NCBI GenBank assembly: GCA_001899635.1
Contig: MKVQ01000035.1
Location: 1-64,000, forward strand
Origin: Myxococcales bacterium 68-20
GTDB lineage: Bacteria > Myxococcota_A > Polyangia > Polyangiales > Polyangiaceae
DNA length: 64,000 bases
Direction of reading: 5' to 3'
Positions 31,413 to 40,704 of the stretch are shown in pieces; within the stretch, counting starts at the first letter, position 1; each line of letters opens with the position of its first letter. The position numbers and the translations under genes are program-made. A model generated the notes under the pieces. That model saw only the letters and a list, made by a program, of their open reading frames with translations. It searched no databases and was not told the DNA's origin.

Positions 31413-31864
31413 CGATTCGACTTCGCGTCAACGGCACCGATCACGAGCTCGACGTCGATCCGGAGATGCCGCTCCTCTGGGCGCTCCGCGACGTCCTCGG
31501 GCTCACCGGGACGAAGTACGGCTGCGGAGAGGCGCTGTGCGGCGCATGCACCATCCACATCGATGGCGAGGTGGTGCGGTCGTGCGTGACGCCGGTGCGC
31601 CGCGCAGCCGGCAAGAACGTCACGACGATCGAAGGACTTTCGCCCGACGGCTCCCACCCGCTGCAGAAGGCCTGGGTCGATCTCGGCGTCCCCCAATGCG
31701 GCTTCTGCCAGGCGGGCCAGATCATGAGCGCGGCGGCGCTCCTCGCGAAGAAGCCGAAGCCGACGGACGCGGAGATCGATCAGTCGCTCGCCGGCAACCT
31801 GTGTCGATGCGGCACGTACCTCCGGATCCGCGCAGCGGTGAAGAAGGCTGCAGGTGAGCCGTGA
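31409..31864 (+). CDS. Molybdenum hydroxylase [2Fe-2S] subunit (IorA-like)
   Basis: This 151-residue iron-sulfur subunit is of the isoquinoline 1-oxidoreductase/aldehyde oxidoreductase type. The plant-ferredoxin-type cluster is bound by [16 protein letters not shown] (C-x4-C-x2-C plus a later Cys, SCVTP). The second, helical [2Fe-2S] domain shows [10 protein letters not shown] and [11 protein letters not shown]. It moves electrons from the Mo centre in the large subunit. It overlaps both neighbours by 4 bp (ATGA upstream; GTGA at 31861-31864 downstream), so a stoichiometric complex is expected. Confidence 0.93.
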
Positions 31865-34140
31865 GCGAATCGATCCGCGTCGTCCGGCGCTCGTTCCTCG
31901 CCGGCCTCGGTGTCACCCTCGGCGGCCTCGCCCTCGGCTCGTTCGCCCATGCGGAGGCGCCGAAGCCACCGCCCGCGAAGCCGGGCGGAACAAACGCGAC
32001 CGGCGCGACCGCCGGCGCCGGTCTCCGCCCCAACGTGTTCGTGCACGTAGCGCCCGACGGCATCGTCACGATCGCCTGTGCCCGCTCGGAGATGGGCCAA
32101 GGCGTGCGCAGCACCTTGCCCGCCCTCATCGCCGACGAGCTCGGCGCCGACATGGCGCGCGTGAAGATCGTGCAGGCCGTCGGCGACAAGGCTTACGGCG
32201 ACCAGAACACGGACGGCTCGAGCAGCGTCCGCAAGGCGTTCACCGATCTCCGCCGCACCGGCGCCGCTGCGCGGATGATGCTCGTCACGGCGGCCGCGAA
32301 GCGCTTGAAGGTACCGGCCTCGTCGCTCCGCGTGCGCGACCACACTGTGATCCACGAGGCGACCAAGCGCGCGCTCGGATTCGGCGAGCTCGCCGACGAC
32401 GCCGCGAAGGTCCCGGTGCCGAAGAAGGAGGAGATCGTCCTCCGCCCGCTCTCGGAGCTGAAGACGATCGGCAAGGACCTGCCGCTGCTCGACGCGCCCG
32501 ACATCGTGACCGGCCGCGCCATGTTCGGCGCCGACCTGAAGCTCCCCGGCATGCTCACGGCGGTCATCGCGCGCCCTCCGGTCGTCGGAGGCAAGGTCGC
32601 GAAGTACGACGCCGCGAAGACGCTCGCGGTGAAGGGCGTGCAGCGCGTCGTTTCCCTCCCCGCACCGAAGCCTCCGTTCGCGTTCCAACCGCTCGGGGGC
32701 CTCGCCGTCGTCGCCGACAACACGTGGGCGGCGATGCGCGGCCGCGCGCTCCTCGAGATCGCGTGGGAGCACGGCGACAACGCCGGCTACGACTCGAAGA
32801 CCTACCGCGCGAAGCTCGAGGCCGCGGTCCGTGCGCCTGGGCGCGTCGTGCGCGCCCTCGGCGACGCGGACAAGGTGCTCGCCTCGGCGAAGCGCACCGT
32901 CGAGTCCATGTACTACGCACCAAACCTCGCGCACGCGCCGATGGAGCCGCCGGTCGCGGTGGCGAAGGTCGACGATCGATCGTGCGAGGTGTGGGCCTCG
33001 ACGCAGAACCCCCAGTCCGCACGGACGGCGCTCGCGAAGGCGCTCGGCTTCGACGAGAGCCAGGTGACGGTCCACGTCACGCTCCTCGGCGGCGGGTTCG
33101 GCCGGAAGTCGAAGCCCGACTACGTCGTCGAGGCCGCGCTCGTCGCGAAGGCGATGGGCGTCCCGGTCCGCGTGCAGTGGACGCGCGAGGACGATCTCCA
33201 GCACGACTACTACCACTCGGTCAGCGCGCAACGCCTCGTCGCCGGCCTCGACGAGGGAGGCAAGGTCGTCGCGTGGCACCATCGCACGGCGTTCCCACCG
33301 ATCGCCTCCACGTTCAAGGACACGGCGTTCTCCGAGCCCGGACAGCTCGGGCAGGGCGTGCTCGACGTGCCGCTCTCGATCCCGAACGTCCGCGCCGAGA
33401 ACTGCGAGGCCCGCGCCCACACGCGGATCGGCTGGCTCCGGGCGGTCGCGAACATCTATCACGCGTTCGCGGTGCAGAGCTTCCTCGACGAGATCGCGCA
33501 CGCGCGCAAGGTCGACCCGAAGGACAACCTCCTCGAGCTCCTCGGCCCCGCGCGCATCTGGAAGCCGGCCGACCTCGGCGTCACCGAGCTGCCGAACTAC
33601 GGGCAGCCACTCGATCAGCATCCGATCGACACGGCTCGTCATCGCCGTGTCGTCGAGCGCGTCACCGATCTCTCCGGCTGGAGCAAGCGCGCTGCGTCCG
33701 GGCGCGCGCTCGGGCTCGCGGTGCACCGGAGCTTCCTCGCTTACATCGCCGTCGTCGTGTCCGTGGTGAAGGATCCGGCGGGCAAGATCCGCGTCGACGA
33801 GGCGTGGATCGTCGCCGACGCGGGGCTCGTCGTGAACATGGAGCGCGCGCGCTCGCAGTTCGAAGGCGCGGTCATCTTCGGGCTGAGCCTCGCGCTCTAC
33901 GGCGAGATCACGATGAAGGACGGCGCGACCGAGCAGTCGAACTTCCGCGACTTCCGCCTCATGCGGCTCCCGGAGGCGCCGCGCCGGATCCACGTCGAGG
34001 TCCTCCAGAGCGACGCTCCTCCGGCGGGCATCGGCGAGCCGGGCGTGCCACCGGTCGCGCCGGCGCTCACGAACGCGATCTTCGCGCTCACCGGAACGCG
34101 GGTGCGGGAGCTGCCCGTTATCCGGACACTCTCGGTCTAG
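31861..34140 (+). CDS. Molybdenum hydroxylase large subunit (IorB-like), Tat-exported
   Basis: This 759-residue molybdopterin-binding catalytic subunit starts at GTG 31861. A twin-arginine signal ([15 protein letters not shown]) directs the folded complex to the periplasm, the small subunit presumably travelling with it. Mo-cofactor motifs include [16 protein letters not shown] and [15 protein letters not shown]. The essential active-site glutamate lies in [17 protein letters not shown] near the C-terminus. The xanthine-oxidase superfamily hydroxylates N-heterocycles or oxidises aldehydes with water oxygen. The substrate here cannot be told from sequence. A MocA-like gene follows 3 bp downstream. 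Confidence 0.93.
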
Positions 34141-34143
34141 CCG

Positions 34144-34755
34144 ATGCGCGGACGGCGAGACAGCGGCCGATTTCACGGCGTCGTCCTCGCGGCAGGGAAC
34201 GGCAACCGGATGGGCGGTCCGAAGGCGCTCGTGCTTCTCGGCGGCCGGGCGCTCCTCGAACGACACCTCGAGCGCCTCCACGAGTCGGGCTGCACCTCGG
34301 TGACCGCAGTCGTGCGGCCCGCCGACGCCGACGCCGCATACGCCATCGCGAGGCGTCTCCCGTTCGACGTCACGCTCGTCGCCGCGACGACGCCGAGCCA
34401 GGCCGCGTCGCTCGCCTCGGCGATCGGTCGCCTCGTGCTCGAGGACGGCGATGTGGTCGCGATCACGCCCGTCGATCTGCTCCCGCCGCGCCTCGCGACC
34501 GTGCGCGCGCTCGAGGCCGCTCTCAGGAGCGCGCTCGCCGCGACGCCGTCGTATCACGGGCAGGGAGGTCACCCTGCCCTCGTCCGCCCGGAGGTCCTCG
34601 CTCCTTATGTGCGGGGAGAGACACCGCCGCTCCGCGACGTCCTCGAGGCGCTCGGAGCCCGCCGCCTACGCGTCGAGGTGGATGATGCGGCGGTGACCGG
34701 CGACTTCGACCGCCCGGACGATCTCCCGCGCCGCCCCGGGGCGCACGCCGGCTAG
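34144..34755 (+). CDS. MocA-like molybdenum cofactor nucleotidyltransferase
   Basis: This 203-residue MobA/MocA-family enzyme adds a nucleotide (probably CMP) to molybdopterin. The signature VVLAAGNGNRMGGPKAL corresponds to the LAAGxSxRMGxxK substrate loop. An active-site acid lies in AITPVDLLPP, and the C-terminal TGDFDRPDDL matches the family's DIDTPED ending. It starts 3 bp after the Mo subunit gene. A dedicated cofactor-modifying enzyme in the same operon supports cytosine-dinucleotide cofactor use by the IorAB-type enzyme. Confidence 0.88.
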   Translation: MRGRRDSGRFHGVVLAAGNGNRMGGPKALVLLGGRALLERHLERLHESGCTSVTAVVRPADADAAYAIARRLPFDVTLVAATTPSQAASLASAIGRLVLEDGDVVAITPVDLLPPRLATVRALEAALRSALAATPSYHGQGGHPALVRPEVLAPYVRGETPPLRDVLEALGARRLRVEVDDAAVTGDFDRPDDLPRRPGAHAG

Positions 34756-34930
34756 CCCGACCTGCTCACCTGTGGAGGCGGACCGTTCGGCGACCCCAGC
34801 CGGAAACGGTGATTGGCCAGGGTGAGAGCACTGCCGCCGCGGTCGGGGGCGCTCGCGCTCGCGCCGGATCTTCGCACGCCCCCCTTTCCGTGTCTTGACT
34901 CGAGCCGTGCCGTTGGAGGACGTTGCACCC

Positions 34931-36049
34931 GTGAAATTTCGACTCAGCGCACCTGCCCTGTTGATCGCGGCGTCAACCCTGCTCGTGCTCGTGATCAGCG
35001 TCGTCGCCCAGCTCATGACGAAGCGGCTCGTGGAGACTGCCCACGCCGGTGACTACGACCTGATGCGGCGGGCCTTCACCAGCACGCTCAAGGGCATGAC
35101 GGACGAGGCGTCCTCCGACGCCGAGATCTTCGCCAACATCCCTTCCGTCCGCACGGCGTTCATCGAGCGGGACCGCCCCAAGCTCCTCGCCCAGACCGAG
35201 ACCGCGTACAAGCTCATGGAAGAGAAGTACGCGATCGACCAGGCGCAGTTTCACACGCCTCCCGGAGTGTCGTTCCTCCGCCTCCAAGAGCCCGGGAAGT
35301 TCGGCGATGACCAGACGTCCTATCGGCCGATGCTCGCGGAGGTCCACCACGAGAAGGGGCTGAGGAAGGGCGTCGCGATCACCAAGGCCGGGCCTGCCAT
35401 CTTCGGCATCGCGCCGATCCTCGACGATGCGGGGAACCTCTCCGGGAGCTTCGAGATGGGCCTCGAGTTCGGCCCGGTGCTCGACGACATGAAGTCGGGC
35501 TTCGGGCTCGAGGGCGCCGTGTTCTTCCAGGAGAAGCAGCTCCAGGAGATCGCAACCGACCTCCCGGGCGACATCATCACGTCGAAGAACCGGGTTGGAA
35601 AGTACATCCGCTTCCACTCGACGCACCCCGAGCTCGCCGCCGCGCTCGTCACCGATCGTGACGTGGAGATCACGACCCCGAAGAGCTACGAGCGGACCAT
35701 CGCCGGCGTCCCGTGGGGCGTGCAGCTCATGCCGCTCTACAACTACGCGAACAAGCAGATCGGCGTCGTCGCCATCGCGGCGAGCTTCGAGGAAGACATC
35801 ACCCTGCAGCGCCGCGCCCTCATCTGGCAGGTCCTCGCGGGCGTCTTCAGCATCGTGCTGATGGCGGGCGTGGTCGTCATCGTGGTCCGCGGTGTCCTGA
35901 TCGCTCCGCTCGGGGCGCTCAACGAGCGCATGGCCGCGCTCGTCGCGGGCGATGCGTCGAGGCCGGCCGACCCACTCGACAGCTACTGCGAAGAGCTCGA
36001 GACCCTCGCGAAGAACTACGAGCACCTCCGCACGCAGAGGAAGCCATGA
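34931..36049 (+). CDS. Cache-domain membrane sensor coupled to a ligand-gated channel
   Basis: This 372-residue protein has an N-terminal TM helix (about 6-27), a large extracytoplasmic region (about 30-295) with the Cache-type pattern GVSFLRLQEPGKFGDD, AITKAGPAIFGIAPILDDAG, and a second TM helix (about 300-325, LIWQVLAGVFSIVLMAGVVV). A short HAMP-like tail ends the protein with no methyl-accepting, kinase or cyclase output domain. GTG 34931 was chosen because GGAGGA lies upstream and the TM then begins at residue 6; in-frame starts at 34895 and 34907 are possible. Its stop overlaps the ATG of the pentameric channel gene (ATGA, 36046-36049). A ligand-binding partner of that channel is inferred. 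Confidence 0.85.
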   Translation: MKFRLSAPALLIAASTLLVLVISVVAQLMTKRLVETAHAGDYDLMRRAFTSTLKGMTDEASSDAEIFANIPSVRTAFIERDRPKLLAQTETAYKLMEEKYAIDQAQFHTPPGVSFLRLQEPGKFGDDQTSYRPMLAEVHHEKGLRKGVAITKAGPAIFGIAPILDDAGNLSGSFEMGLEFGPVLDDMKSGFGLEGAVFFQEKQLQEIATDLPGDIITSKNRVGKYIRFHSTHPELAAALVTDRDVEITTPKSYERTIAGVPWGVQLMPLYNYANKQIGVVAIAASFEEDITLQRRALIWQVLAGVFSIVLMAGVVVIVVRGVLIAPLGALNERMAALVAGDASRPADPLDSYCEELETLAKNYEHLRTQRKP

Positions 36050-37356
36050 AGAAGCGGCGCACTCGCGCGCGTTCGCTCATGATCGCCCTGCTCGGGACGA
36101 TCTTCGGGCTGGCGCTCGTGCTCTTTCCGCTCCGCGGCAGCCGCGCCGAGCCGGCGTCCGATCGAGCATCGACCAAGTCCACCGACGCCCCGGCGAAGGG
36201 TGCCGCCCGGACCAAGAAGGGGGCTGCGGTCGCGGCCGCGGCCGACGCGCCCGCAGACAGCGCCGGAGCAGCGGCGGGCGACGCCGGAGCACCGGTGACC
36301 GCCACGGAGGCGGCGCCCGTTGCGGCCAAGGCCGAGGAGGCGAACCTCACCTCGATTCCGATCGGGCGTGGCCTCCCGGTGAAGGTGAACGTCGGCGTCT
36401 TCTTCCTCGAGCTCCAGTCGTTCGACGACACCAAGGGCGAGTTCGAAGCCACGACCGATCTCCGGTTGCAGTGGATGGACACGCGCCTGCGCTTTCCGCG
36501 CAGCGAGAGCTATCGCGGCTACAAGGAGTGGCGAGGCAAGGACGCCGAGGAGCAGATCGCCAAGATCTGGACGCCGACGATCGACGTGGCGAACCGGCTC
36601 GAGTCTTCGGGCTACGTCGGGCGGCGGCTGCGCATCTATCCCAGCGGTGAGGTCGAGATCCTGACGCGTACGACGGCTCGCCACACCGGGCACGTGAGCG
36701 CGGAGACGTTTCCGTTCGACCGGCAGCGCCTGGCCCTCGATCTGATCGTACGCGACGACACGACCGACGAGGTCCTCCTGCGCTTCGACCAAGACGACGT
36801 CGTCTTCAGCCGCGCCGCGAACAACGCGACGCTCGACGGCTGGGAGCTTGGCCTGGTCGAGCTCCACGGGGCCGAGGTCGCCGGGTGGAACGGCGATCGG
36901 TATGCGCGGATGACCGCGTCGCTGGTCGTCGATCGCCTCGCGAGCAGCAGCCTCGCGCCGATCTTCATCCCGCTCCTCGCCTCGCTGCTCATCCCCCTCC
37001 TCGCGATCTGGATGAACAGGACCTCGGAGGACGGCGGTGAGTTCGAGGTCGACGCCTTCGAGCTCGCCAACATGTGCATCGGCGGCCTCTTCTCGGTCAT
37101 CGCCCTCAGCTTCGCGATCTACTCCTCGTACACGGTCATCGCGAACGGCGACAACACGGTCACCCGCCTCTTCGGGCTCAACTACGCGATGCTCGCGATC
37201 ACGCTCGCCATCGTGGTCGTGTGCTTCCGGTACAACCTCCTATCCAAGCTCTTCGGCCCGTACGTGCAGCGCGAGACGTTCACGTTCATGTCGTGGGCCC
37301 TCCCGGTCCTGTCGCTCGCGACGAGCGTCGCGTTCCTGCTCGTGGCCGCAGCCTAG
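36046..37356 (+). CDS. Prokaryotic pentameric ligand-gated ion channel (Cys-loop/GLIC family)
   Basis: This 436-residue protein has a signal peptide (to about residue 34) and an Ala/Asp/Lys-rich linker (35-100). The extracellular beta-sandwich follows (about 108-298), with WTPTIDVAN (175-183, the family WxPxxxxxN) and the Pro-loop FPFD (222-225), lacking the disulfide as in other prokaryotic members. Four TM helices follow: 301-323, about 338-362 (pore, ELANMCIGGLFSVIALSF), 372-394 and 412-435. A Glu at the inner end of TM2 suggests, but does not prove, cation selectivity. AGAGGA precedes ATG 36046. It overlaps the Cache sensor gene by 4 bp. Confidence 0.9.
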   Translation: MKKRRTRARSLMIALLGTIFGLALVLFPLRGSRAEPASDRASTKSTDAPAKGAARTKKGAAVAAAADAPADSAGAAAGDAGAPVTATEAAPVAAKAEEANLTSIPIGRGLPVKVNVGVFFLELQSFDDTKGEFEATTDLRLQWMDTRLRFPRSESYRGYKEWRGKDAEEQIAKIWTPTIDVANRLESSGYVGRRLRIYPSGEVEILTRTTARHTGHVSAETFPFDRQRLALDLIVRDDTTDEVLLRFDQDDVVFSRAANNATLDGWELGLVELHGAEVAGWNGDRYARMTASLVVDRLASSSLAPIFIPLLASLLIPLLAIWMNRTSEDGGEFEVDAFELANMCIGGLFSVIALSFAIYSSYTVIANGDNTVTRLFGLNYAMLAITLAIVVVCFRYNLLSKLFGPYVQRETFTFMSWALPVLSLATSVAFLLVAAA

Positions 37357-37365
37357 GTGGATGGG

Positions 37366-37404
37366 GGCTGGCCCGGGCCACGGCGAGACCGGCCCGGGCC
37401 AGCC
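37366..37404 (+). terminator. Perfect 14-bp stem hairpin after the channel gene
   Basis: The arms GGCTGGCCCGGGCC (37366-37379) and GGCCCGGGCCAGCC (37391-37404) are exact inverse complements with an 11-nt loop, 10 bp past the channel stop. There is no U-tract. It most likely ends the Cache-pLGIC transcript. Confidence 0.75.
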
Positions 37405-37474
37405 AGCGACGCCGCATAACTCGCGAGAAGTGCGGGAGCACCGAGCTGGCATGTAGCTCGCTCGAGGCGCGGGC

Positions 37475-38515
37475 ATGAAGCTCGGCCTGTATCCAGTGCT
37501 CCTCACCGTGCTCGTCACGCTCCTCCTTCTTCTCGCGCGGACGGCAGAGGCATCGCCCCGACGCGGCCCCTCATTCGACGGCGCGCACGAGGACGCGCTC
37601 GCGGATGGCGACATCGATGAAGAGGACATCGCGACGAGCCCGCTCTCGTCGCTGTCGTCGGCAACGAGCGGCCGGCCGATCGTCGGTCGCCCGAGCGGCT
37701 CCGCGTGGGTGTCGCTGCTCGGGTTCGGACGGCAGGCGCCTCTCCAGGGTCGACACGAGATCGGAGCCTTCATCGTCGTGGGGCTCCCGCTCGATCGATT
37801 CGCGCGCGCGAACACACGCATGACGGCGGCTCCAATCGCCGCGCTCTCGCCTGCTCTCGATCTCGTGCCCGCGAGCACGCATGGCCCAGCGACGCTCCAG
37901 CGAGCATCTTCGACCGAGCAGCCGTTCGAGCTCGCGCTCACGCCGCGGTTCGCCCGCTCCTGCGTCACGGCGGCCTGGCGTGCGGCCGGTCTCGGTGCAG
38001 ACGACGCGCGGCTCGACGCGCTCGTTTCGCGCGCACGATGGAGCGCGGCCTTGCCCGAGGCGCGCTTGCGGGCGGTTCGAACCGACGATGCACGCCTCTC
38101 GCTCGACACCACCACGACCACGGACACGAGCCGCCTCCGGGACTCGACGGGCGCGAACGTCGGCTTCGAGGCGCGACTGACGTGGCGGTTCGACCGGCTG
38201 CTCTACGCGGACGACGAGCCGGCGTTCGAGCGCATCCGGCTCGAGCACCGAGACGCCCGCACGCGCATCGGCGCGAAGGTGCTCGACGCGCTCTTCCACT
38301 GGCAGCGAGCCGCACTCGATCTCCGTTCGCTTCCGCCGGCGCAGCAGGGCACGCGCGACGAGGCCGACGTGCGGCTCCGCTTGATGGAGGCCGCGGCCGC
38401 GCTCGACGTGCTCACGAACGGTTGGTTCGCCGCGCAGAACACCCGCGGCTCCCAGATCACGCCGGAGTACGCCACCCCACTGCCGCTCGGCAGGAGCGCT
38501 CCCGGCGATCTCTGA
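37475..38515 (+). CDS. Secreted protein of unknown function
   Basis: This 346-residue protein has a Sec signal peptide (LLTVLVTLLLLLARTAEA). The mature part is Arg/Ala-rich. A region around 165-300 is predicted to alternate helix and beta (ARLTWRFDRLLYADDEPAFE, LDALFHWQRAALDLRSLPP), with the helical end reminiscent of periplasmic coiled segments of envelope proteins. No catalytic motif is seen. The start ATG 37475 is 70 bp past the channel terminator hairpin, and prfB follows 44 bp downstream. The function is unknown. Confidence 0.7.
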   Translation: MKLGLYPVLLTVLVTLLLLLARTAEASPRRGPSFDGAHEDALADGDIDEEDIATSPLSSLSSATSGRPIVGRPSGSAWVSLLGFGRQAPLQGRHEIGAFIVVGLPLDRFARANTRMTAAPIAALSPALDLVPASTHGPATLQRASSTEQPFELALTPRFARSCVTAAWRAAGLGADDARLDALVSRARWSAALPEARLRAVRTDDARLSLDTTTTTDTSRLRDSTGANVGFEARLTWRFDRLLYADDEPAFERIRLEHRDARTRIGAKVLDALFHWQRAALDLRSLPPAQQGTRDEADVRLRLMEAAAALDVLTNGWFAAQNTRGSQITPEYATPLPLGRSAPGDL

Positions 38516-38559
38516 ACCGGCCTGAGCCCCCTACGATTTGTGATAGGGTAGCGAGAACC

Positions 38560-39697
38560 ATGAGTGCTGAAACTCGCGAGAAGCTCGATGACCTCCAAAG
38601 GCGTCTCATGACGCTAAGGGGGCATCTTTGACGTCCCGAAGCTGAAGCGGGACATCGAACGCCTGAACGAGGAGACCCTCGCTCCGGGGTTCTGGGATGA
38701 CTCCAAGAAGGCGCAGGCCGTGACCCGGAAGCGGTCCGGCATCGAGCAGAAGGTCGAGACGACCGAGAAGCTCACGCGAGACATCGAGGACGCGAAGGAG
38801 CTCTTCGAGCTCGGCGTCTCCGAGAAAGACGACTCCGTCGTGGTCGAGGTCACGGGGCAGCTGCCCGACCTCGAGAAACGCCTCCGCTCGTCCGAGCTCG
38901 GCCGTATGCTCTCCGGCCAGGTCGACCACGCGAACGCGATCCTCAGCATCCACCCCGGCGCCGGCGGCGTCGACGCGAAGGACTGGGCGCAGATGTTGAT
39001 GCGCATGTTCCTCCGCTGGTCGGAGCGGCGCGGGTACAAAACGGAGATCATCGACTTCCAAGAAGGCGACGAGGCCGGCATCGACGGCGTGACCATCACG
39101 ATCGCCGGCGATCACGCCTTCGGCTACCTCCGGAGCGAGGTCGGTGTGCACCGCCTCGTGCGCATCTCGCCGTTCGACGCAAACGCGCGCCGGCAGACGG
39201 CGTTCGCGGCGGTCGAAGTGCAGCCGGACATCGAGGACGAGATCGACATCGTCGTGAAGGACGAGGATCTCGAGACCACGACGATGCGGGCCGGCGGCAA
39301 GGGTGGCCAGAACGTCAACAAGGTCGAGACGGCCGTCCGCATGAAGCACATCCCGAGCGGCATCGTCGTCGTGTGTCGCGCGGAGCGCTCGCAGCTCCAG
39401 AACCGGCGCATGGCGCTGAAGATGGTGAAGGCGAAGCTCTACGAGCTCGAGATGGCGAAGCGCGAGGAGCAGGCAGCCGCCTATCAGGCGAGCAAGACGC
39501 AGATCGCGTGGGGCAATCAGATCCGCAGCTACGTGCTCGCGCCTTACCGCATGGTGAAAGACCTGCGGACGGCTCACGAGACGGGCAACGTCGACGCCGT
39601 CCTCGACGGTGAGCTCGACGACTTCGTCGAGGCCTATCTCCTCGCTGCCGCGGGCGGGACCCTCGCGAAGGGCGGCGTGAACGACCTCGAGGATTAG
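38560..39697 (+). CDS. prfB: Peptide chain release factor 2, with programmed +1 frameshift
   Basis: RF2 recognises UGA and UAA. Translation starts at ATG 38560 ([20 protein letters not shown]) and meets an in-frame TGA at 38629-38631. The site AGGGGG-CAT-CTT-TGA-C (38617-38632) is the canonical prfB autoregulatory frameshift: after Leu CTT (38626-38628) the ribosome slips +1 and reads GAC (38630-38632), continuing [10 protein letters not shown] to 39697. The product is about 378 residues. The codon-recognition tripeptide is SPF ([11 protein letters not shown]) and the catalytic motif is GGKGGQNVN. Low RF2 raises frameshifting and so its own synthesis. Confidence 0.97.
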
Positions 39698-39717
39698 AAA
39701 GCAGCCGCGGATCCGTC

Positions 39718-40704
39718 ATGAGCACGGCTTCGCGGCATCGCATTCGCGTCGGCGTCGATCTCGGTGGGACCAAGATCGAGGCCGTCGTCGTGGACCTCGG
39801 CCCGGGGGAGCCCGACACCGGCGCGGCTCCTCCGCCGTCCGAGCTTGCTCGTGCCCGCATTGCGACGAATCGGACGCAGGGCTACGAGCACGTCCTCTCG
39901 GAGACGCGCGCGCTCGTCTTCGAGGTAGCGAAGCTCGCCGGGATCGATCCGATCAGCACGCCGATCGGCGTCGGGATGCCCGGCTCGGTGACGATGCAAC
40001 GTGCCGGCGGAGGCCGCTCCGACCTGCCGCTAGTGAAGAACTCGAACACGACCTGCCTCAACGGCAAGCCGTTCCATGCCGACCTCGCGAAGGCGGTCGG
40101 GCGACCGATCGCGTTCGCGAACGATGCGAACTGCTTCGCGCTCGCCGAGGCGACGTGGGGAGCAGCGCGGGGCGCGCGCGTCGCCTTCGGCGTGATCCTC
40201 GGCACCGGCGTCGGCGGCGGCGTGGTGATGACGAACGACGGGGGCATCCCGCGCGCATGGAACGGCGCGCAGGGGATCGCGGGCGAGTGGGGACACGTCG
40301 TCCTCGATCCCGAGCGCGGCCCCGCCTGTTATTGCGGTCGCCGCGGCTGCATCGAGACCTACCTCAGCGGGCCCGCGATCGAGGGCGAATACACGCGACG
40401 CGCAGGCATCGCGCGTCCGCTCACCGAGATCGCTGCTCGCGCGCGAGGCGAGGACGATGCGGTCGCGCGCGAGCTGCTCGACGAGCGCATCGACGTGTTC
40501 GGCCGTGCGCTCGCGACGGTGGTCGACATCCTCGATCCGGACGTGATCGTGCTCGGCGGCGGTGTCTCGAACCTCGATGCACTCTACGACGAGGGGCCCC
40601 GCGCCGTCGCACGCTGGGTCTTCAACGACGACCTCGCGACGAAGATCGTGAAGCACGCGCTCGGTGACAGCGCAGGCGTCCTCGGCGCTGCGCTCTTGCC
40701 GTGA
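39718..40704 (+). CDS. ROK-family sugar kinase (fructokinase/glucokinase-like)
   Basis: This 328-residue ATP-dependent hexose kinase has the phosphate-1 motif GVDLGGTKIE. VKNSNTTCLNGKPFHADL is typical of Mak-type fructokinases and some GlcNAc kinases. The catalytic Asp lies in FANDANCFALAEA. The zinc-binding ROK signature is CYCGRRGCIETYLSGP. The ATG at 39718 is 20 bp after prfB. It is cytoplasmic; substrate between fructose, glucose and N-acetylglucosamine cannot be resolved from sequence. Co-transcription with prfB is possible. Confidence 0.92.
   Translation: MSTASRHRIRVGVDLGGTKIEAVVVDLGPGEPDTGAAPPPSELARARIATNRTQGYEHVLSETRALVFEVAKLAGIDPISTPIGVGMPGSVTMQRAGGGRSDLPLVKNSNTTCLNGKPFHADLAKAVGRPIAFANDANCFALAEATWGAARGARVAFGVILGTGVGGGVVMTNDGGIPRAWNGAQGIAGEWGHVVLDPERGPACYCGRRGCIETYLSGPAIEGEYTRRAGIARPLTEIAARARGEDDAVARELLDERIDVFGRALATVVDILDPDVIVLGGGVSNLDALYDEGPRAVARWVFNDDLATKIVKHALGDSAGVLGAALLP

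Follow-up and report, generated by a model that had tools for sequence, protein, structure and literature searches.

Does a sensor protein control an ion channel when the two are encoded by adjoining, overlapping genes? This question is raised by a locus of Myxococcales bacterium 68-20, whose genome is 11.9 Mb in size. We analyzed positions 1 to 64,000 of its contig MKVQ01000035.1 (assembly GCA_001899635.1); this whole stretch is referred to as the window, and features of the pair are given in its coordinates and lie on its + strand. A gene for a Cache-domain protein with two transmembrane (TM) helices (34931..36049) is directly followed by a gene for a GLIC-type subunit of the pentameric ligand-gated ion channels (pLGICs) (36046..37356). 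The stop codon of the former overlaps the ATG start codon of the latter in the sequence ATGA (36046..36049), as noticed in the first-pass annotation of this stretch. That annotation called the two genes translationally fused, which is incorrect, as they overlap by 4 nucleotides (nt) and there is no fusion. It also proposed that Cache protein and channel form a bipartite sensor. This idea is not new, cooperation of Cache proteins and pLGICs having been discussed since 2004 (PMC549065), but it gains strong comparative support here, because all 24 of 24 loci are paired, the distances of the two proteins match and the cytoplasmic tail of the sensor has been lost in 4 of the 24. We conclude that the Cache protein probably serves the channel as a regulatory subunit dedicated to it.

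Channels of the same clade were detected at 24 distinct loci, which come from the phylum of the window, from a Burkholderiales metagenome-assembled genome (MAG) and from other genomes of the MAG's phylum, i.e., at least two phyla. In all 24, a Cache gene lies directly upstream on the same strand, and the adjacency noted in the window is thus conserved in other genomes. Ten of 58 related genomes had a channel of the clade, in each case with an adjoining full-length Cache homolog, and the other 48 had neither at full length. The channel of G035 is split over two contigs by a contig end, and a fragment (L015) with the loop C signature described below is probably its other half; G027 and G029 gave weak partial Cache matches. 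A scan of species genomes yielded eight loci, five of which duplicated earlier ones (same contig positions or scores); one of the three new loci was the Burkholderiales MAG (53% identity). Among 398 genomes of the MAG's phylum, a pLGIC was present in 7 (8 matches), and it was paired in the MAG itself (G319), G653 and G908 and unpaired in the other 5 matches. In the order of G908, 22 of 297 genomes gave a total of 25 matches to the channel profile; 10 of these had E <1e-38 and were all paired, and none of the remaining 15 (1.3e-25 or weaker) was. The MAG was the sole match in 300 genomes of its own order (at most 5 candidates per genome scored). Within the window's phylum, 27 of 282 genomes had a pLGIC domain match and the pair was found only in G000 (the window's genome), G042 and G237 (at most 7 candidates per genome). 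The channel profile (A2) had been built without 11 loci (G653 and the ten in the order of G908), which were found by channel searches. All 11 proved to be Cache-paired, and thus the sensor gene could be predicted from the sequence of the channel. One gene flanking the MAG pair has homologs with 41–46% identity in 2 other genomes among 120 of the order, which is consistent with binning of the MAG to Burkholderiales, although it is not proof.

At 64 other pLGIC loci, no match to either Cache profile was found at E 0.01. Of these, 53 are in the phylogenetic tree described below and 11 are outside it (10 matches from the window's phylum and G009:C64; some are fragments), the latter also having no GW[NHY] motif in the stretch tested. 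Within the window's phylum, 27 of 30 pLGIC matches are not beside a Cache gene, and 17 of these are in the tree. The sequence available upstream of the 53 unpaired channels was short for some (81 nt at least, median 1311). In 45 upstream neighbors of unpaired channels, none of the 25 families listed (of 65 Pfam families) matched more than two, and a rare Cache domain of another type is possible; the other 8 of the 53 loci had no same-strand neighbor >110 aa for scanning. The first-pass annotation would have been weakened by channel homologs that routinely occur alone. Inside the clade this is not the case; other pLGICs, some in the same genomes, are without Cache. A second, distant pLGIC is present in the window's genome (G000:C10:4453-4839; L002, L006; 34% over 132 residues). 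It belongs to a group found in several relatives, and its 11-kb locus contained no match to the Cache protein.

The stop/start overlap (ATGA or GTGA) was present at 23 of the 24 loci, the exception being L128, in which the channel starts with TTG 16 nt past the Cache stop codon. Overlaps of 4 nt are a common feature of operons, and a single one is therefore of little weight. However, the overlap was kept in 8 of 9 pairs whose channels are just 22–27% identical to that of the window, which speaks for selection or for very rare rearrangement. Such an arrangement permits translational coupling, and synthesis of the two proteins may well be coupled in this way. In the flanks of 9 paired loci, which varied in length, no third neighboring gene family recurred, and one cluster linked two of the nine. 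Two neighbors of pairs were read from sequence, an apparent membrane GGDEF protein after the pair in the Burkholderiales MAG (L055:7035-8225, + strand) and a formate-dehydrogenase-like oxidoreductase downstream of the pair in G908 (L123:1-1788, − strand).

Phylogenetic analysis included 76 channels, i.e., 23 full-length paired channels and 53 other pLGICs from the same searches; several of the unpaired ones are long branches. L022, for which no match was found, and L033, whose match was in the linker region, were left out. A branch with 100/100 support separated the 23 paired channels from all the others, and none of 500 label shuffles gave a value as low. Pairwise distances of Cache proteins and channels were highly correlated (Mantel r 0.946, a value reached in none of 5000 permutations), and close groupings in the two trees were largely identical. 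As matched distances are expected of co-inherited genes, they mean that partners were not swapped, and not that the proteins are in contact. The paired channels also share a signature in loop C, which borders the agonist site (G280-W281-N282 in the window, 36883..36891). G-W occurs in 23/23 paired channels (G-W-N in 21), whereas among the 53 unpaired channels W was found in none and G in one. Similarly, Asp251 (36796..36798) is present in all 23 paired and in 0/53 unpaired channels. The two features may reflect contact with the partner, binding of a ligand or shared ancestry.

The Cache protein (GTG start, 372 aa) had been described as a two-TM sensor lacking an output domain, and both Pfam and structure prediction agree with this, with a 52-residue HAMP-like tail past TM2 to be added. 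Its extracytoplasmic double Cache domain, dCache_3 (aa 53-285, 35087..35785), was the sole domain found by Pfam in this protein (1.5e-24, with 87.3 bits where the cut-off is 25.7), with no dCache_1 and VWA. We aligned 14 Cache proteins (A1), which are 31–81% identical to the window's copy. All 14 have dCache_3, which in the window's copy is between the two TM helices (helices 3-68 and 287-338), and in a Pfam scan all of them lacked MCP signal, kinase (HisKA/HATPase), GGDEF and cyclase domains. The start codon is at the same position in all of them (GTG in 12, ATG in 2). Decay of a chemoreceptor, which would have offered another explanation of this gene, was rejected: the frame is open and the C-terminal end varies by only about ten residues among the 14 proteins. 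In the AlphaFold2 model (14 sequences, mean pLDDT 87.1), a long helix (3-68) extends from TM1 into the periplasm and is followed by two Cache modules, the membrane-crossing helix 287-338 and a helix at 354-370. The membrane-distal module matched CitA (2j80_B; Z 19.7, rmsd 1.5, 124 residues aligned) and DcuS (Z 15.6), and the double domain matched DctB (Z 14.8) and LuxQ (Z 14.4). Two arginines of this domain, R117 and R132, are invariant in 24/24 partners. A 2016 survey of Cache domains counted 883 dCache_3 proteins, 811 of which are kinases, MCPs or c-di-GMP enzymes, and Table 1 in the portion of the survey available has no ion channel entry for dCache_3 (PMC4822843).

The tail of the window's protein (aa about 320-372, 35888..36046) extends 52 residues beyond R320 and is modeled with two helices. 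The Pfam HAMP domain was matched by 8 of the 14 aligned members (best 8.9e-4), whereas the window's copy gave no match even at E 10. Among 7 further partners scanned at E 0.1, L125 alone matched (0.0058), and solved HAMP domains compared with the Cache family profile gave E 0.24 or worse. The tail is HAMP-like and may be a degenerate HAMP domain. Four partners are different. The Cache proteins of L128, L130, L131 and L132 end 6–10 residues past the R320 column, where TM2 ends, compared with 51–63 residues in the other 20; Pfam analysis of three of the four showed dCache_3 and no HAMP. That sensors without a cytoplasmic signaling domain are still paired favors a membrane or periplasmic route to the channel. 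The four loci form one small branch of the channel tree and therefore likely reflect one loss.

Cache proteins of this type also occur alone. One such dCache_3 protein in the window's genome (G000:C24:109111-110220; L005:4103-5221, − strand), 71% identical to that of the window, is located beside a cation-efflux-like gene, as read from sequence, and no channel match was found in its 10-kb locus. It is sister to the paired Cache protein of L008 (G009) with 100/99 support, and hence it is probably derived from a paired one. In addition, G125, a genome that had no PF02931 match, encodes two dCache_3-HAMP proteins in tandem (L090:2345-4882, − strand; G125:C28), which lack an output domain and have no adjoining pLGIC. 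Cache-HAMP proteins without output may form a wider class.

The channel (436 aa) was identified as a pLGIC subunit by Pfam, phmmer and Foldseek. Neur_chan_LBD (PF02931) matched aa 108-266 (3.4e-16, 59.8 bits against a cut-off of 26), and among PDB entries GLIC chains (phmmer, 4e-14) were the closest solved relatives by sequence. Foldseek analysis of the single-chain model gave GLIC (4.4e-18 over 335 columns) and DeCLIC (2.7e-17). The confidence of this model is moderate (mean pLDDT 60.1), and its details were therefore not used. The protein begins with a probable signal peptide (aa 1-34, 36046..36147; model helix 5-26), a hydrophobic helix followed by SRA, where cleavage would occur. Next is an Ala/Lys/Asp-rich low-complexity linker (aa 35-104, 36148..36357). 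The linker had been suggested to dock the partner. It does exist and is predicted to be disordered (pLDDT <50 for residues 28-109), but it is not conserved, and a role in docking was rejected: the segment N-terminal to the landmark L110 of the extracellular domain (ECD) ranges from 31 to 130 residues in 23 channels and is merely 31–38 residues long in nine of them, which leaves little beyond the signal peptide. The ECD has no Cys. In place of the Cys-loop it has the Pro-loop FPFDRQ (aa 222-227, 36709..36726; alignment A4), of the form FPFD-x-Q, whose P223 and D225 are present in 23/23 paired and 53/53 unpaired channels. The channel also has what we take to be the pre-M1 Arg and the Pro of M1. 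The transmembrane domain (36940..37350) consists of M1–M4, modeled as helices 299-328, 332-361, 370-395 and 405-435 and consistent with the Foldseek match to GLIC, and the subunits would assemble as a pentamer.

Recurrence of the pair in distant bacteria, together with the nearest relatives of this channel, points to control of the channel by the sensor. A mechanism can be proposed from what was observed, namely the order and overlap of the genes, their domain content, pairing throughout the clade, the signature in loop C and the lack of a tail in some partners. The two genes would encode one receptor unit, in which the pentameric Pro-loop channel would be the pore and the two-TM Cache protein would be anchored beside it in the inner membrane, with dCache_3 in the periplasm. 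A small molecule would bind the Cache domain; it might be a carboxylate, since the distal module resembles those of CitA and DcuS. The ligand-induced change would then reach the channel via periplasmic or transmembrane contacts, perhaps at or near loop C, with no kinase or chemotaxis output of the sensor's own, and would alter channel opening and hence the membrane current. The 4-nt overlap would keep synthesis of Cache protein and channel together. Physical contact, the direction of modulation, the ligand, the ion and the physiology are inferred. We also considered a more specific and rather doubtful version, in which this deep and separate branch of bacterial pLGICs is a two-component receptor channel: a Cache subunit docked to the outer face of the pentamer would have taken over ligand reception, the GW loop C would be a partner contact that replaces a free agonist cap, and the Cache protein, in place of an agonist acting on the channel itself, would open or close the channel.

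It should be noted that several observations weigh against a regulatory subunit. The overlap is missing in L128, and matched distances would be expected for any two neighboring genes that are inherited together. In the Cache tree the paired proteins did not group as a single clade, the deep split being weak (24/38), and the GW motif and D251 could merely mark shared ancestry and not contact. The tail-less cases, being one branch with two near-copies, are not four independent losses, and the fact that 20 of the 24 partners have retained a tail of 51–63 residues is a hint that most of them act in the cytoplasm. Finally, the solo protein in the window's genome indicates that the Cache protein may also function independently of a channel.

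Some of these points lead directly to other explanations. Retention of the tail, which is HAMP-like in 8 of the 14 aligned members, would fit an independent signaling protein, i.e., a shortened chemoreceptor or kinase sensor that joins other HAMP proteins and shares only a response with the channel, and the solo Cache protein and the tandem proteins of G125 also point in this direction. On the other hand, the four tail-less partners are still paired, no MCP, kinase or GGDEF domain occurs in the 14 members and pairing is found at 24/24 loci, which makes this explanation improbable. It is also unlikely, though somewhat less so, that the Cache protein concentrates or presents a periplasmic solute, which then gates the channel via the channel's own pocket, a stable complex not being needed. 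This was the view of Tasneem et al. (PMC549065). The channel has retained its whole ECD, in which loop C is strongly conserved, as if it used a site of its own, but overlapping genes and invariable pairing suggest a fixed partnership. Moreover, solute capture is the job of soluble binding proteins, and a membrane-anchored two-TM sensor, with a tail in 20/24, would be an odd capture protein.

Assistance in folding, insertion or membrane retention of the channel, with sensing being secondary, is slightly harder to accept than solute capture and can be regarded as quite unlikely. The Cache protein is encoded first and overlapping, as might suit such a factor, and the precedent is alpha2-delta, in which ligand binding by Cache domains affects trafficking (PMC9901441). 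However, R117 and R132 are invariant in 24/24 as if the site were used, and 64 other pLGIC loci do without the partner. Accidental neighborhood with no functional link deserves almost no credence: other pLGICs do have varied neighbors, but the pair recurs at 24/24 loci from two or more phyla, 23 of which have an identical overlap of 4 nt, and 9 loci showed no other shared neighbor. Thus, a dedicated regulatory subunit remains the explanation that we favor.

The genes around the pair were also examined. Directly 3' of the channel gene is the perfect hairpin that had been reported for this site, a 14-bp inverted repeat with an 11-nt loop (37366..37404, assigned to no strand; arms 37366-37379 and 37391-37404). 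It has no T tract and was not among the terminator-like sites scored, and an Rfam scan of 34000-39800 gave no match. Upstream, in 31861-34755, a gene for a molybdopterin-binding oxidoreductase subunit is closely followed by one for a MobA-like nucleotidyltransferase; the two probably represent a molybdenum hydroxylase together with the enzyme for its cofactor. The downstream neighbor encodes a 346-aa protein with no Pfam match above the cut-off and is followed by a gene which, from its sequence, we take to be prfB. The latter contains AGGGGG and then CTTTGAC (38600-38650), a programmed frameshift context that is presumably the classic one of release factor 2.

The roles of prokaryotic pLGICs in their hosts are largely unknown, and a clade that is always accompanied by a sensor gene provides a direct experimental handle. 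If the sensor does gate or tune the channel, the pair would be a bacterial receptor channel with an auxiliary subunit, made from the kind of domain that is used in animal alpha2-delta, and characterizing such channels alone may miss the agonist. Tail-less pairs would be natural minimal versions for structural work. Among the open-license papers that came up in our searches, none described experiments on a Cache protein together with a pLGIC, and this literature did not mention constant pairing across the clade, sensors lacking the tail or the signature in loop C. In the available part of a 2016 inventory of pLGICs, the words Cache and operon do not occur (PMC4795631).

Several known systems can be compared with the pair. 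GLIC, the proton-gated channel of Gloeobacter, shares the ECD, Pro-loop and four-TM architecture with the window's channel; it differs in that, as the best PDB match to the channel profile, it scored 86.6 bits versus at least 135 bits for paired members, and its loop C is without GW in the alignment. We know of no partner gene of GLIC. The closest precedent was described by Tasneem et al. in 2004, who found pLGICs fused to Cache domains and, in Rhodopseudomonas, one predicted operon in which the Cache gene is a separate one, and proposed cooperation and a chemotactic role (PMC549065). Like the window's pair, the Rhodopseudomonas operon has a separate Cache gene beside a simple pLGIC, and by description, which is the basis of our comparison, it likely belongs to the same clade; it was presented, in the part of the paper available, as one case without analysis of domain subtype, overlap or clade (PMC549065). 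A Cache sensor is likewise tied to the pLGICs of Methanosarcina, Cytophaga and Microbulbifer, in which an N-terminal MCP-N/Cache region is fused in one chain (PMC549065), whereas here it is a separate two-TM protein; stoichiometry and the route of coupling may differ accordingly. DeCLIC is also a pLGIC with an added periplasmic regulatory module, but that module is a fused two-lobed N-terminal domain which binds calcium and is neither a Cache domain nor a separate subunit (PMC12664993, PMC9897478). Finally, alpha2-delta of animal voltage-gated calcium channels is an auxiliary channel subunit that contains Cache domains (PMC9901441). It has dCache_1 and VWA, is lipid-anchored and serves an unrelated pore family, whereas the window's protein has dCache_3 and two TM helices and accompanies a pLGIC; the likeness between the two is one of analogy only.

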